Source: Alphaproteobacteria bacterium
GTDB lineage: Bacteria; Pseudomonadota; Alphaproteobacteria; GCA-2731375
Assembly (NCBI GenBank): GCA_021776235.1
Contig: JAJFGG010000069.1
Span: forward strand, 62,001-126,000
DNA length: 64,000 nt
Direction: 5' to 3'
Position numbers and translations under genes: made by a program. The notes beneath the pieces were generated by a model. The model was not told the origin of the DNA and did not search any database. It saw only the letters and a program-made list of their open reading frames with translations. This document shows positions 24,670-30,013 of this stretch, one piece after another. Within the stretch, counting starts at the first letter, position 1. Every line of letters begins with the position of its first letter.

Positions 24670-25629
24670 TCAGGGGGCCTCCAGGACCCGGATCGGCTGA
24701 CCGTTCAGCCAGGCTGCTACGTCTGCCACGGTTTCCTGGTGAAACTGCCGCAGGGTTTCCTCTGTCACGTAGGCCATGTGCGGCGACAGGACGGTGTTGT
24801 CCAGGGTCAACAGAGGATGACCGGCGGGCAAGGGTTCGCGATCATAGACATCCAGGGCGGCGCCGGCGATGCGGCCTTCACGTAAGACGTCCAGCAAAGC
24901 CGTTTCATCGACAATGGGGCCGCGGGCGGTGTTGACCAAATAGGCATCCGGTTTCATCAGGGCCAGGTCGTCGGCCCCGATCAGGCCGCGGCTGCGCTTT
25001 GAGAGGATCAGATGGATCGAAACGATATCCGATTGTTTGAATAATTCCGCTTTCGAAACGAGTTCCGCATCGCATTCCCTGGCCCGCTGGGCCGTCAAAT
25101 TCTCGCTCCAGGCAATAACCCGCATATCGAACAAATTCGCGATGGCGGCGGTGCGGGCGCCCAGACGACCCAGGCCAACCAGGCCCAGGGTACGCCCGGC
25201 CAGGGTTTTGCCCACGCTGGTTTGCCATTTGCCGGCGCGGGTGGCCCGGTCCTCCTGGGGCAGATTGCGCACCACCGCCTGGATCAGGGCCCAGATCATT
25301 TCCACGGTGGAGGCCATCTGTCCGCCGGTGCCGCAGACAGTGACGCCATGCTCCGAGGCTGCTTGTACATCGATGGCGCCGTTACGCATGCCCGTGGTTA
25401 CCAGCAGTTGCAAATTCGGCAGCCTTTCGAACAGGGCGCGGGGAAAAGGCGTACGCTCGCGCATGGCGGCCAGTATTTCGAACGGTGCCAGGCGGGCCGC
25501 CACCGCCTCCAGGTCGGCCAGATTGTCATCGAACACCGTAATGTCCACAGCCTCCGGCAGGCTGGACCAATCGGCCAGCTCCAGGGCCACGCGTTGATAG
25601 TCATCCAGGATTGCCAGTTTCTTCGTCAT
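24670..25629 (-). CDS. D-2-hydroxyacid dehydrogenase family protein
   Basis: A 319-aa NAD-dependent dehydrogenase of the D-isomer-specific 2-hydroxyacid family. The Rossmann motif LGLVGLGRLGARTA is at about residue 148. Catalytic Arg lies in NTARGPIVDE near 233, Glu in DVYDREPLP near 262, and His in LSPHMAYVTEE near 280. It is the last gene of an operon, 2 bp after the selenoprotein gene. Phosphoglycerate dehydrogenase is its best known relative, but context points to catabolism of an unidentified 2-keto or 2-hydroxy acid. Confidence 0.88.
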   Translation of the reverse strand: MTKKLAILDDYQRVALELADWSSLPEAVDITVFDDNLADLEAVAARLAPFEILAAMRERTPFPRALFERLPNLQLLVTTGMRNGAIDVQAASEHGVTVCGTGGQMASTVEMIWALIQAVVRNLPQEDRATRAGKWQTSVGKTLAGRTLGLVGLGRLGARTAAIANLFDMRVIAWSENLTAQRARECDAELVSKAELFKQSDIVSIHLILSKRSRGLIGADDLALMKPDAYLVNTARGPIVDETALLDVLREGRIAGAALDVYDREPLPAGHPLLTLDNTVLSPHMAYVTEETLRQFHQETVADVAAWLNGQPIRVLEAP

Positions 25630-25631
25630 CC

Positions 25632-26879
25632 TCAGACCTTCTCTTTGGCCCGGTATTTCTGCGCGGCCGGGATCAACAACAGATTGGCGAAGGTCTTCAT
25701 GAAACCGTCATCCAATTGTTCCGCCAGGTCGTTGGCAATGGGCCACAATGCATACAATGCCTTGCCGGCGGCGGTATTGCCGTAGAACCAGTCGTTCATT
25801 TCCCGCCCCGTATTTTGCCCAGGCTGCGCCCCGGCAGCCTCGCGATAAAAGGCCTTCAGGTCTTCCACGGCGAATTTCAGGCTTTGCCCGAGGCTTCGCT
25901 CGCCGCACGGATTTTCCGGCACTCGACCGTCCAGAAAGGCGCAAATAAAGTCGGTGATTTCGCCGATCGTCATACCGCTCAAACCCATGGTGGTGCGTTC
26001 CCGCTGCCGCAGGGCGATGTCGTACCAGGTGCTCAGGCCGGCGATCTCGGCTGCCATGGCGGCCTTGAATCCGCCGCCGGCGCTTAGGTCGGCCGGTGGC
26101 GGCGGCAGGTTGATGGGACAGAACCAGCCTTCGCCTTCCTCCGCCGCGGCGGCGGAAGGCGCATCCTCGGGGAAGTCTTCCAAAAGCACCGGGCCATCGG
26201 GCCGTTCCAGCAAGGCCAGAACCGCGCGCAGCACTTTCAATTGAAAGGCCGGCTCGTTGGGCGCGCCCAAGGGACGGCCCAGTTCAAACGGCACCCACAA
26301 GGCCCGCGGCGGCCGGGTATTTTCCGTTTGCGGGCGGATCAGGCTGATCTGTGTCGTTGCCAGGCCTTCGTCCTCCAGAAAATGTGCCAGCCCGCCCACG
26401 GCGCGCGTGCAAAGGGGTCAAACCGGAAGCAGCAGGCAGCTGTCGACGCCATCCGCTTTCAAAAGCCCGGCCATGGTGCGGGCCGCATCTTCCATCTGAA
26501 CCGGGTCGGTGGAGCCCATGAAGGCGTAGTGAAAACGGGCGACGGAACCAATTTCCCCGGCTTCGGCCATTTCATGCAGGCGGTCCAGGGGCAGGACCAC
26601 GTTCAAATCCTGCTCGAAGCCGGAGCGGTCGAAATTGGTGGAGATATGGCTCATCACCAGATCCTTGGCCGGGGTATCGTCGGCGATAACCCGATAGTCG
26701 CCGGTGCCGATCTGAAAGGGCTGGTCCTCGCGGTGTTGCAGGGCGGCCGTGGAAATCAGCGCCACCCGACGCGCCGTCAGGGGCGGTCCAGTGACCCAGG
26801 GCTCGGTATCGAAGGCGGGGCAGGGCACATTGCCCAGGTGCGAGCGTTCCGGCTCGTCAAGATCGGCTAATCTTACCAA
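25632..26879 (-). CDS. selenoprotein of the glycine/sarcosine/D-proline reductase B family (Sec at codon 154)
   Basis: Two adjacent same-frame pieces are separated by one TGA (26418-26420). Read through as selenocysteine they give 415 aa with the sequence LLLPV-U-PLCTRAVGGLAHFLE, so U154-x2-C157 falls where related proteins have a Cys-x2-Cys or Sec-x2-Cys redox motif. The N-terminal half (HISTNFDRSGFEQDLNVV) and C-terminal half (PPRALWVPFELGRPLG) both match the GrdB/PrdB-like family. A hairpin meeting bacterial SECIS rules follows the UGA. The reaction is unknown, with reductive C-N or similar chemistry inferred. The coordinates span the whole gene through the UGA. Confidence 0.85.
26386..26410 (-). 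promoter_or_regulatory. bacterial SECIS-like hairpin
   Basis: Starting 8 nt after the UGA, the mRNA can fold GCACGCGCGCC against GGCGGGCTGGC with 8 of 11 positions paired and a GUG apical loop (26397-26399). The loop begins with G, 18 nt separate it from the UGA, and the inner 4 bp are continuous. These fit the published bSECIS pattern: a small loop with G in the first two positions, 16-37 nt from the UGA. Folding was done by eye. Confidence 0.65.
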
Positions 26880-26917
26880 TGTTTTCTCCTCGTCTAAGGC
26901 AAGTTCTATCTAGCACA

Positions 26918-28144
26918 CTATGATGCTGGGCCCAGGGCGCCCCGGGCCCGCAAGTCGGCGATTTCGGCGTCGTCGTAGCCGGACTCGGCCAGAATTTCCA
27001 GGGTATGCTCGCCCAGTTGGGGCGCCGGCCGCGGCCTCCGTTTGCGCGCACCTTCGATCCACATTGGGCTGTCGATGGTCAACTCGGCGCCGAAACCCGC
27101 ACCGGCACCCGGCACGGTGATGCCGGCGGCCCGGGCCTGCTCGCTGTGCAGGATATCTTCGGTCTTGGCGACTTCGCCCACCGTGATGCGGCTGGCCGCG
27201 AAAGCCTGGCGCCAGTAGTCCATATTCTGCCGGGCAAAGATCTCGTCCAGAATTGCCACCAGAACGCCGGCGTTGCGCTGCCGTTCCTGCTGATTGACAA
27301 AACGCGGGTCCGAGGCCAATTCCGGATGGCCGATGGCGTCGGGGAAGCGGCCCCATTCCTTGTCCTCGTTGGCGGCGGTCAGAATGAACCAGCGGCCATC
27401 CTGGCAGCGATAATGGTTCGATAGCGCGTTGGTCGCCGCGTCACGCCGGGGCCGTTGCGGCACCGCCGCGCCGCACAGCGCGGCCTGAGCCATGAAGCCG
27501 TTGGACCAAACCCCATTAGCCAACAAAGAGGTATGGGCCATGCCGCCCAAGCCTGTGCGCTCGCGGCGGTACAGAGCCAGCAGGATCGCCGAAAGCAGGG
27601 CGATGCCGGTGGGGTGATCCCCCATGCCGGGCATGGAGCGGGCTGGATCACCGCCGGGATCGGGGCGGACCAGATCCATCAGGCCGCTGCGGGCCCAATA
27701 GGCGGTTGTATCAAACCCGGTCTGTCCCGCCTCGGGCCCGGTTTCGCCATAGGCCGACATGGAGCCATAGATCAGGCGGCTGTTCAGGGGCGCCAGATCC
27801 TCATAGAGCAGGCCCAGCTTTTCCCGCACGGACGGCATGAAATTGGTGACAAAGACGTCCGCCCCGGCGACCAGCCGATACAAGACCTCGCGCCCGGCTT
27901 CGCTGGTCAGATCCAGATGCAGACCCCGCTTGGAGCGGTTGTCGACCTGCCAATGATAGGGCTCCTCGGCCTGGGGCATGCCGGCCAGGGTGGACAACTT
28001 TCGATAGCCATCGCCCATGGGCGGTTCCAATTTGATTACCTCGGCGCCGAAATCGGCCATGATCGTGGTCGCGACCGGCCCGGCTATGAAGCTGGCCGCG
28101 TCCACCACCTTGAGACCCGCCAGAATCATGGCATCATCGCTCAT
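26918..28144 (-). CDS. CaiB/BaiF family III CoA-transferase
   Basis: A 408-aa protein with the family hallmarks: LKVVDAASFIAGPVATTIMADFGAEVIKLEPP (over residues 10-41), the RSKRGLHLDL segment near 72 and GMGDHPTGIAL near 172, where the catalytic Asp sits. Family III enzymes move CoA between acyl-CoA and a free carboxylic acid. It lies 38 bp upstream of the selenoprotein gene, so the pathway probably involves CoA-activated acids. The substrate cannot be determined. Confidence 0.88.
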   Translation of the reverse strand: MSDDAMILAGLKVVDAASFIAGPVATTIMADFGAEVIKLEPPMGDGYRKLSTLAGMPQAEEPYHWQVDNRSKRGLHLDLTSEAGREVLYRLVAGADVFVTNFMPSVREKLGLLYEDLAPLNSRLIYGSMSAYGETGPEAGQTGFDTTAYWARSGLMDLVRPDPGGDPARSMPGMGDHPTGIALLSAILLALYRRERTGLGGMAHTSLLANGVWSNGFMAQAALCGAAVPQRPRRDAATNALSNHYRCQDGRWFILTAANEDKEWGRFPDAIGHPELASDPRFVNQQERQRNAGVLVAILDEIFARQNMDYWRQAFAASRITVGEVAKTEDILHSEQARAAGITVPGAGAGFGAELTIDSPMWIEGARKRRPRPAPQLGEHTLEILAESGYDDAEIADLRARGALGPAS

Positions 28145-28320: not shown

Positions 28321-29055
28321 TCAATAAAATGTCCGGCCGCCGTCGACGGCCATCGCCGTGCCCGTAATGTAGGAGGCATCGGCGCTGCTGAGAAACAGAA
28401 TAGCGGCGGCGATTTCGCCGGCTGTGCCAAAGCGGCGCAATAAATAGCGCTGCTGGATCATGGCCTTTTCCGCCGCGGGGTCAGGGGCGTCCTGGTACGA
28501 GCCGGCCAGCATGGGCGTATCGATGGCGCCCGGGCAGACGGCGTTGACCCGGACGCCGGCGTCGGCGACCGCGCTGGCCAGCGTCTTGGAAACCATCACC
28601 CGGCCCGCCTTGGGAGCGCAATAGGCCGTGCGCTCGGGCAGGGGAAACAGGCCGGCGCCAGAGGCAACGTTGACGATGCTGCCGCCCCTTGCCGCCTGCA
28701 GGCAGGGCACCGCGGCGCGGCAGACATTGGCGGCGCCGGTCAGGTTGACGGCGATGATCTCGTTCCAGTCCGCCGGTGCGACCTCCGTCAGGCGGCCCAG
28801 TTGATCCTTGCCGGCGCAGTTGACCACGCCGTCCAAACCGCCCAGGCCGCTTGTCGCTGCCGCTATCGCCGCGGCGACGGCCGTAACGTCGGTGACATCT
28901 GCGGGACAGGGGATGGCGTCAAAATCCGCCAGGCCCTGGTCGTTGCGGTCCAGCAAGGCCAGGGCGGCGCCTTCGCTGGCGAACAGTTCGGCGCTGGCCC
29001 GCCCTATGCCCGATGCCGCGCCGGTGATCAGAATGCGGCGCCCGGCCAGTTTCAT
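28321..29055 (-). CDS. SDR-family oxidoreductase
   Basis: A 244-aa classical short-chain dehydrogenase. Cofactor motif TGAASGIGRAS is at residue 11, an acidic residue at the end of beta-2 (LLDRND) suggests NAD(H), NCAG is near 86, and the catalytic YCAPK is near 146. It starts 3 bp after the stop of the ATC-hydrolase-like gene. A 176-bp gap separates it from the CoA-transferase gene downstream, so the two groups may be separate transcripts. Confidence 0.87.
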   Translation of the reverse strand: MKLAGRRILITGAASGIGRASAELFASEGAALALLDRNDQGLADFDAIPCPADVTDVTAVAAAIAAATSGLGGLDGVVNCAGKDQLGRLTEVAPADWNEIIAVNLTGAANVCRAAVPCLQAARGGSIVNVASGAGLFPLPERTAYCAPKAGRVMVSKTLASAVADAGVRVNAVCPGAIDTPMLAGSYQDAPDPAAEKAMIQQRYLLRRFGTAGEIAAAILFLSSADASYITGTAMAVDGGRTFY

Positions 29056-29058
29056 GGC

Positions 29059-29529
29059 CTAACCATCCTGGTCAATCTTGAAGCGAAAATCGCAATGCGA
29101 AGCGCCGCCCATGATGGTTTGGGTGCGGGTCAGGGTAACGTCGGGATTATAGCCTTCGCACAGGGAGCCATCCCGGCCGCAGGACAGGATCGTGCCAATG
29201 TGCGCGAGGTCCATTTCTTTGTACATTTCCGCATAGCGGCAGCGGACAACGTTGAAATCAAGCTTATTCTCGCTGGAATGCAGCTCTTCCTTTTTCAGGG
29301 CATCGCCTTTTGACCATCGGCCTGTCAGCGTGGCGAAGGTTTCCAGATTATTTGGCTGATCCGTGCTGGCCGCCAGTTCGGCGCCCTGGCGCACCGCATC
29401 GGTGTTGATGGCCTTGCTCAATATTTCCCGGGCTCTTTCCTCGCCCAGTTCCGCGACCATTTCCTCATAAATCGGCTTGATGATATTGGCCTCGATTTGG
29501 CGGACCTGCAGGATGGGTAGATCGTCCAT
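29059..29529 (-). CDS. L-2-amino-thiazoline-4-carboxylate hydrolase-like protein
   Basis: I place the start at 29529 (MDDLPILQVRQIEANI), with AAAGGA 8 bp upstream, giving 156 aa. The helical N-terminus, the central NKLDFNVVRCRYAEMYKEM and the C-terminal LSCGRDGSLCEGYNPDVTLTRT (in parts) match the ATC hydrolase domain family (PF14196-like). Only one member of the family has a known role, in L-cysteine production from ATC, so this name is a family label. It is the first gene of the operon leading to the SDR gene. Confidence 0.72.
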   Translation of the reverse strand: MDDLPILQVRQIEANIIKPIYEEMVAELGEERAREILSKAINTDAVRQGAELAASTDQPNNLETFATLTGRWSKGDALKKEELHSSENKLDFNVVRCRYAEMYKEMDLAHIGTILSCGRDGSLCEGYNPDVTLTRTQTIMGGASHCDFRFKIDQDG

Positions 29530-29721
29530 GACAAATAATCCTTTCAAAAAACTGCGGCGCCCCGATGCAGTCCCGAATTGAGCCGGCCGGCCCACTGGCT
29601 GCTAGCGGCAAGTCCAAGAATGCTTCAGCTGCAAGCTTAACAGATTCAGGGCTGCTGCTTCATTAATGATCTTTTAACGGAAATGGGTTCAGGCTGCATG
29701 CCATAGCTGTGGAACGCGAAC

Positions 29722-29816
29722 CCACATCCACGAAAAGGCAAACCGCCGGCGACGGCGGGACGCAAAGCCACCGGCCTGTCCCCAAGGCACTAGGGACAGG
29801 CGGCGGGGTCACCGAA
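29722..29816 (+). ncRNA. c-di-GMP-I (GEMM-I) riboswitch
   Basis: The conserved core CACGAAAAGGCAAACC is followed by a perfect 6-bp stem with a GCGA GNRA tetraloop (CCGCCG/CGGCGG, 29743-29758), then GACGCAAAGCC. A 9-bp stem GCCTGTCCC/GGGACAGGC (29774-29801) and GGCGGGGTCACCGAAGG complete it. Tetraloop, receptor arm and GACGCAAAGCC are GEMM-I hallmarks. The G at the Vc2 position 20 equivalent fits c-di-GMP rather than cGAMP. I do not see a convincing outer P1 helix. The 3' end abuts the AGGAGG of the gene at 29828, which suggests translational control. Confidence 0.88.
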
Positions 29817-29827
29817 GGAGGATTGCC

Positions 29828-30013
29828 ATGCTAGCAAGCGCCGGCTTTCTGTTGGATGCCTACTGGACCCAATGGACTGGTCTGTTTCCGTCCATTCCAT
29901 TCTGGAGTCCCCACGGTGCGGTGATGAGCCTGATCCTGGGCGCCGCCTTTAGTGTTCTGGCCGGAAAGTATGTCTGGCGGATGCTGCGGCGTTTCCTCGT
30001 GGTCCGATTCTAA
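29828..30013 (+). CDS. 61-aa membrane protein under riboswitch control
   Basis: It starts at ATG 29828 with GGAGG 7 bp upstream, directly after the GEMM-I aptamer. The first half is aromatic and hydrophobic (LDAYWTQWTGLFPSIPFWSPHG). One clear helix follows at about residues 31-46 (AVMSLILGAAFSVLAG), then a basic tail (VWRMLRRFLVVRF). I do not recognise it. The next gene is on the opposite strand, so this is the only evident target of the riboswitch. A membrane role in c-di-GMP-dependent behaviour is inferred. Confidence 0.7.
   Translation: MLASAGFLLDAYWTQWTGLFPSIPFWSPHGAVMSLILGAAFSVLAGKYVWRMLRRFLVVRF

Follow-up and report, generated by a model that had tools for sequence, protein, structure and literature searches.

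The DNA analysed here, hereafter the window, is a stretch of 64,000 nucleotides from an alphaproteobacterium of the GCA-2731375 group (assembly GCA_021776235.1, contig JAJFGG010000069.1). On its minus strand lies a gene of 415 codons (25632-26879) that starts with TTG (26879-26877), is preceded by a likely ribosome-binding site (GAGGAG, 26886-26891), ends in TGA (25634-25632) and is interrupted by a single internal TGA (26420-26418). The minus-strand translation continues from this codon into CCC CTT TGC and reads V-U-P-L-C, in which U is residue 154 and Cys157 (26409-26411) is the presumed resolving cysteine of a U-x-x-C pair. Gene calling with table 11 yields two ORFs instead (26418-26879 and 25632-26399). 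A preliminary description of this DNA had reported one frame broken solely by the TGA, to be read as U-P-L-C, and had predicted annotation as two truncated genes; both points agree with our results, and the interrupted frame is real. The span it had assigned to the feature (26386-26879) holds the 5' part of the gene and a hairpin, but the gene extends to 25632.

The gene is flanked on the same strand by a CaiB-type (family III) CoA-transferase (26918-28144) and a D-2-hydroxyacid dehydrogenase (24670-25629) that begins 2 nt past the selenoprotein stop. Both adjoin the gene in the genus, in the conserved order CoA-transferase, selenoprotein, dehydrogenase. Genes further upstream vary: an SDR oxidoreductase (28321-29055, minus strand), which only loci L060 and L068 share with the window, is accompanied in all three by an ATC_hydrolase (PF14196) family protein (29059-29595, minus strand in the window), and other sets of genes occur elsewhere. 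We also observed a c-di-GMP-I riboswitch (29727-29816, plus strand, 62.4 bits) that points away from the selenoprotein operon. Directly behind it is an unlisted 61-aa ORF (29828-30013, plus strand) with an AAGGAGG site and the look of a small membrane protein. The riboswitch recurs in L060 and L068, and a similar small ORF in L068.

A close relative with the same TGA was present in all other genomes of the genus (10/10) and in three more genomes of the family. The host genome itself encodes nine paralogues, types a (the window gene) to i, all with UGA (9/9) and with the motif U-P-x-C, the second cysteine being kept in types a, b and d-i and replaced by Asp in type c (U-P-L-D). At the level of the order we collected more than 90 matching genes in 15 genomes, and UGA was found in every match that spanned the site; across the class, 50 of the 385 alphaproteobacterial genomes searched encode the PrdB-like family, mostly in the UGA form. 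Fourteen checked relatives carry Cys (TGC or TGT) at this codon, and these Cys forms are scattered over several separate parts of the tree. The window Sec also shares an alignment column with that of annotated PrdB proteins from two clostridia, Terrisporobacter and Peptoclostridium. The position had been described beforehand as a redox-motif site at which relatives would have Cys or Sec, and those examined indeed have either UGA or Cys there. The downstream half of the gene, whose family likeness had been put forward as an argument against decay, is 78-91% identical within the genus.

Decay into a pseudogene, or a sequencing error with a Cys codon misread as TGA (a danger that the preliminary description had itself raised), would fit the two truncated ORFs and the single base that separates TGA from TGC and TGT, but it is ruled out for practical purposes by the same TGA in ten sister genomes, each assembled independently, and in eight paralogues, with the conserved downstream half and purifying selection on the hairpin speaking against it as well. 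A reassigned code was likewise rejected: because TGA terminates 21 called window genes (at least 150 aa) and the selenoprotein gene itself, UGA is an ordinary stop in this DNA.

Some family members depart from the common pattern. In type c (L082:7614-8432 and orthologues), the second Cys was absent from all members seen, while the UGA and the hairpin are kept. Two orthologues (L021 and L027) bear an extra stop, a TAG in G012 and a second TGA in type b of G001, perhaps through decay or assembly error. One member (L095; G013 contig 8, 328051-332258) is split by about 3 kb coding for two proteins that by eye resemble an IS21-type transposase and its helper. Isolate names in the genus records (casp150, BS150m, SI072, Arabian10) point to marine oxygen-gradient waters, and we infer that they denote the Caspian, the Black Sea, Saanich Inlet and the Arabian Sea. 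The host genome also encodes cytochrome oxidase genes.

Downstream of the UGA, the message can form a SECIS-like hairpin (26385-26411, minus strand; core stem 26390-26406) with a GUG loop (26397-26399) whose G lies 18 nt past the UGA, as had been described. Single-sequence folding was uninformative about it, with the window hairpin showing no excess of stability over shuffled sequence (z 0.09; +0.66 in a second run). The earlier case for a SECIS element thus stood as regards the hairpin and its spacing, but as a single-sequence argument it was weak, and comparative evidence carries the claim. The loop G-U lies exactly 18 nt past the UGA in 45 genes, and stems wholly different in sequence between clades are nevertheless paired (GCGCC-GUG-GGCG; CAGACcGUGaGUCUG; GACCGCcGUGaGCGGUC). 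In the stem alignment 88.8% of cells are paired and 53 cells are changed on both sides. The covariation score was 0.559, against 0.194 +/- 0.028 for shuffled alignments (0 of 500 shuffles as high) and at most 0.142 in a slid control; since the sequences are related, the shuffle counts do not equal probabilities, while the slid control retains the relatedness.

Synonymous change pointed the same way. The synonymous codon difference between the nine genus orthologues compared has a mean of 0.40, and windows of six codons with zero synonymous divergence (4 of 238) occurred only at codons +5 to +14 past the UGA. In a synonymous recoding test, 6-7 of 7 pairs were kept where 3.4-5.5 were expected, with individual genes not all significant. 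Of 20 class-level Sec genes, 13 have the four inner stem pairs together with the G-U loop, against none of 14 Cys genes (Fisher p 1.6e-4, uncorrected for kinship); the Cys genes lack this signature also when the residues that follow are identical. The hairpin thus has strong comparative support as more than a product of chance, by virtue of covariation and synonymous constraint and not of its stability in one sequence.

For the selenocysteine machinery, a search for selABCD had been proposed. The genome carries selA followed by selB on contig 166, and two copies of selD; selC was the one component not found in the assembly. One selD copy (L041; G000 contig 46, 22266-23192) itself contains UGA (GGG-U-GSK), and the second forms part of an open frame of 760 aa (contig 25). 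Two Rfam tRNA-Sec matches above the cut-off in this genome were both tRNA-Ser. In other Alphaproteobacteria selC is nested in or behind selB (PMC8124441), and none was seen when the end of selB was inspected here. A conserved selC candidate is nonetheless present in all ten sister genomes (10/10), and ARAGORN called a tRNA-SeC (anticodon TCA) at the five sister-genome loci tested, as well as in G014; the missing selC probably reflects an assembly gap. Across the class, 30 of 33 genomes with the UGA form proved to have selA, against none of the 12 that hold Cys forms only (p 1.6e-8, uncorrected for kinship). One of the three UGA genomes in which selA was not found is only 77% complete. G276 and G325, both rather complete, also carry the UGA form, and selA was not found in them.

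That a standard amino acid such as Trp is inserted at the UGA, or that the codon is merely leaky, with selenium playing no part, has very little left to recommend it. Conservation of an open frame names no amino acid by itself, and selC was not found in this assembly, but UGA is an ordinary stop in the window, relatives place Cys and not Trp at the codon, and the UGA form and selA occur together. Together, the UGA or Cys in relatives, the covarying hairpin and the Sec machinery bear out the selenocysteine decoding first suggested from the window alone: we put the probability that 25632-26879 is a functional gene whose UGA (26418-26420) encodes selenocysteine at roughly 96%, on comparative sequence evidence. 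In this gene SelB and tRNA-Sec would read the UGA as selenocysteine, guided by the hairpin just downstream.

The predicted selenoprotein matched PF07355 (GRDB) above the gathering score (29.6 bits against 22) over about 70 residues. Its best named family was NCBIfam PrdB (TIGR04483), with a score of 108 bits where the cut-off stands at 300; every GrdB cut-off was missed as well (TIGR01918, 40.9/65.45; TIGR01917, 32.8/602.2; NF040794, 40.8/800; NF040795, 50.9/775 bits). Because PF07355 was passed, TIGR04483 and the GrdB cut-offs were missed and the Sec column is shared, we place the protein by sequence among the distant members of the GrdB/PrdB superfamily; by the curated test it is not PrdB. 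In an AlphaFold2 model (pLDDT 76.5) the Sec opens a helix directly behind a strand. An extra C-terminal domain (25635-26165, minus strand) was modelled as all-helical (pLDDT 81); no Pfam family was found for it in the window protein, and structure searches with the domain alone gave no match that names it (Foldseek best E 2.0; best Z 4.4). For the whole model, the best Foldseek and VIA-align relatives were photocobilin alpha/beta domains (best E 0.011; best Z 8.0, rmsd 3.0, 114 aligned), which we rejected as too weak, and no GrdB or PrdB chain was among the structure matches listed. A sequence search of the PDB returned a single marginal match to a designed protein, which we did not consider meaningful.

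A D-proline reductase PrdB proper would require a pyruvoyl PrdA. TIGR04483 as the best named family, the shared Sec position and the marine relatives that have been called PrdB (PMC1088965, PMC2398784) would suit such an enzyme, yet we regard it as improbable in view of the score below the cut-off and the extra C-terminal domain. In addition, no PrdA was found among the neighbours examined, although prdA lies near prdB in Terrisporobacter, and PF09338 was not found in the genome, a search in which the controls gave no match either. Since this pyruvoyl partner was not found, an amine Schiff-base route becomes less likely.

Outside the order, genes of the extended PrdB-like clade often lie close to sel genes, in many families. 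selA is about 360 bp from the family gene in G298 and G206, and selA together with selB falls within the family-gene locus in many cases. SelD, or an oxidoreductase-SelD fusion, is encoded within such a locus in nine cases, mostly as the next gene; tRNA-Sec is present in loci L171, L174 and L178, and two gammaproteobacterial contigs have selB as the adjacent gene. In our tree the window gene and all eleven sel-linked genes form one supported clade (100/99); long branches were flagged and the deeper forks are unsure.

Within the host genome the neighbours of the paralogues differ widely. A glutaredoxin gene lies directly 3' of paralogue e. Paralogue g (L086:5711-9175) is followed by an amidohydrolase resembling N-acyl-D-amino-acid deacylases (Amidohydro_3), and the same stretch appears by eye to encode an enzyme of the D-threonine-aldolase type, which hints at a D-amino-acid pathway. 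A GST gene stands beside the relatives in L176, L179 and L181. As to the window gene, the preliminary description had suggested a new catabolic use on the strength of its neighbours. The CoA-transferase, PrdB-like and 2-hydroxyacid dehydrogenase order proved to be conserved in the genus, whereas the use itself is a suggestion drawn from that neighbourhood.

For the reaction we tentatively propose, by analogy, selenolate attack on an alpha-substituted acid or its CoA thioester, a class for which we would claim well short of an even chance. On the model of D-proline reductase and glycine reductase, the alpha-carbon of the carboxylic acid or thioester would be the target of the selenolate, which would displace the substituent there; a Sec154-Cys157 selenenylsulfide may then form, from which a cellular thiol would regenerate the selenolate. 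The chemistry of the superfamily behind this proposal has been described (PMC13188914), including that of FarB (PMC10838667). The conserved operon and the glutaredoxin and GST genes beside some relatives also speak for it, the widely differing surroundings of the paralogues against it. The CoA-transferase of the operon could activate the acid, CoA-thioester activation by this neighbour being a reasonable guess, and the 2-hydroxyacid dehydrogenase might precede or follow the selenoenzyme, with a 2-oxo or 2-hydroxy acid as its substrate. Carried over to the extended clade, this would describe a Sec reductase that needs no pyruvoyl group, draws on glutathione, glutaredoxin or thioredoxin as its reductant and acts on alpha-substituted acids, either free or activated with CoA. 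The sel locus of many marine Alphaproteobacteria would be organised around this selenoprotein, and up to about eleven paralogues would have diversified there over different substrates; taken as a whole, we offer this with greater reserve.

Another reading, a reductive dehalogenase of alpha-halo acids resembling FarB/FarE, seems unlikely. For FarB/FarE of Cloacibacillus, homologues of the GrdB complex, cleavage of a C-F bond with no pyruvoyl group involved has been proposed (PMC10838667), which puts substrates other than amines within reach of the superfamily. Beside the window gene we recognised no partner of the FarE/GrdE kind, and no halide-specific neighbour was seen. The main rival to selenolate attack on an alpha-substituted acid is a thiol-disulfide oxidoreductase that acts on peroxide, disulfides or glutathione adducts and serves general redox balance, not catabolism. 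We consider this a real though doubtful possibility. It would account for the U-x-x-C motif, the glutaredoxin after paralogue e, the GST beside relatives and the linkage, outside the order, to sel genes instead of to one pathway. Set against it are type c, which does without the second cysteine, and the tie of the genus gene to the CoA-transferase and 2-hydroxyacid dehydrogenase, while nine paralogues with differing neighbours fit substrate specialisation better.

Selenoproteins of the PrdB type are a known kind, and the family is not new: they were the third commonest selenoprotein family in the Sargasso Sea set and among the commonest in the GOS set (PMC1088965, PMC2398784). Having ranked among the commonest selenoproteins of ocean metagenomes since 2005, marine 'PrdB' has been read as D-proline reductase, and our comparisons suggest that at least the window branch does something else. 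Since standard gene calling splits the window gene and all eight of its paralogues, surveys of marine genomes can easily overlook the family or count too few members. The operon and the clean Sec/Cys pairs offer a concrete handle for finding the reaction. In a literature search that reached few of the subscription journals, we found no description of the extended sel-linked variant without recognised PrdA or of its nine-gene expansion, nor of the sub-cut-off branch, the helical C-terminal domain or the CoA-transferase/2-hydroxyacid-dehydrogenase operon, and no paper specific to PrdB-like proteins of Alphaproteobacteria or of the GCA-2731375 group.

Among known systems, the Sargasso and GOS 'PrdB' proteins (PMC1088965, PMC2398784) resemble the window clade in pfam07355, the U-x-x-C motif, marine origin, a bacterial SECIS and the scarcity of Cys forms. 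They are known as reads assigned to D-proline reductase and are likened to the window clade here by description; we saw no mention, in the parts available, of their genomic linkage, of how many paralogues there are or of the extra domain. PrdB of TIGR04483, for example from Terrisporobacter, is homologous over about 190 residues and shares the Sec column and U-x-x-C, whereas the window protein scores below its cut-off, is extended by a C-terminal domain and is encoded with no adjoining prdA. To GrdB, GrdF and GrdH (protein B of glycine, betaine and sarcosine reductase) the likeness lies in the C-terminal, Sec-bearing part of the GrdB models; the curated cut-offs are all missed, and a GrdE-type subunit was not found in the genome, with the controls silent too. 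FarB of Cloacibacillus porcorum (PMC10838667) is a GrdB-like Sec protein recruited to fluoroacetate in its own operon, in genomes with several grdB paralogues; unlike the window gene as we read it, it has FarE for a partner and comes from an anaerobe. The selABC-fdhA loci of Alpha-, Beta- and Gammaproteobacteria (PMC1794560) likewise set a selenoprotein gene beside the Sec machinery, but there it is formate dehydrogenase, called the only selenoprotein of such organisms, whereas here it is an extended PrdB-like protein that adjoins the sel genes.
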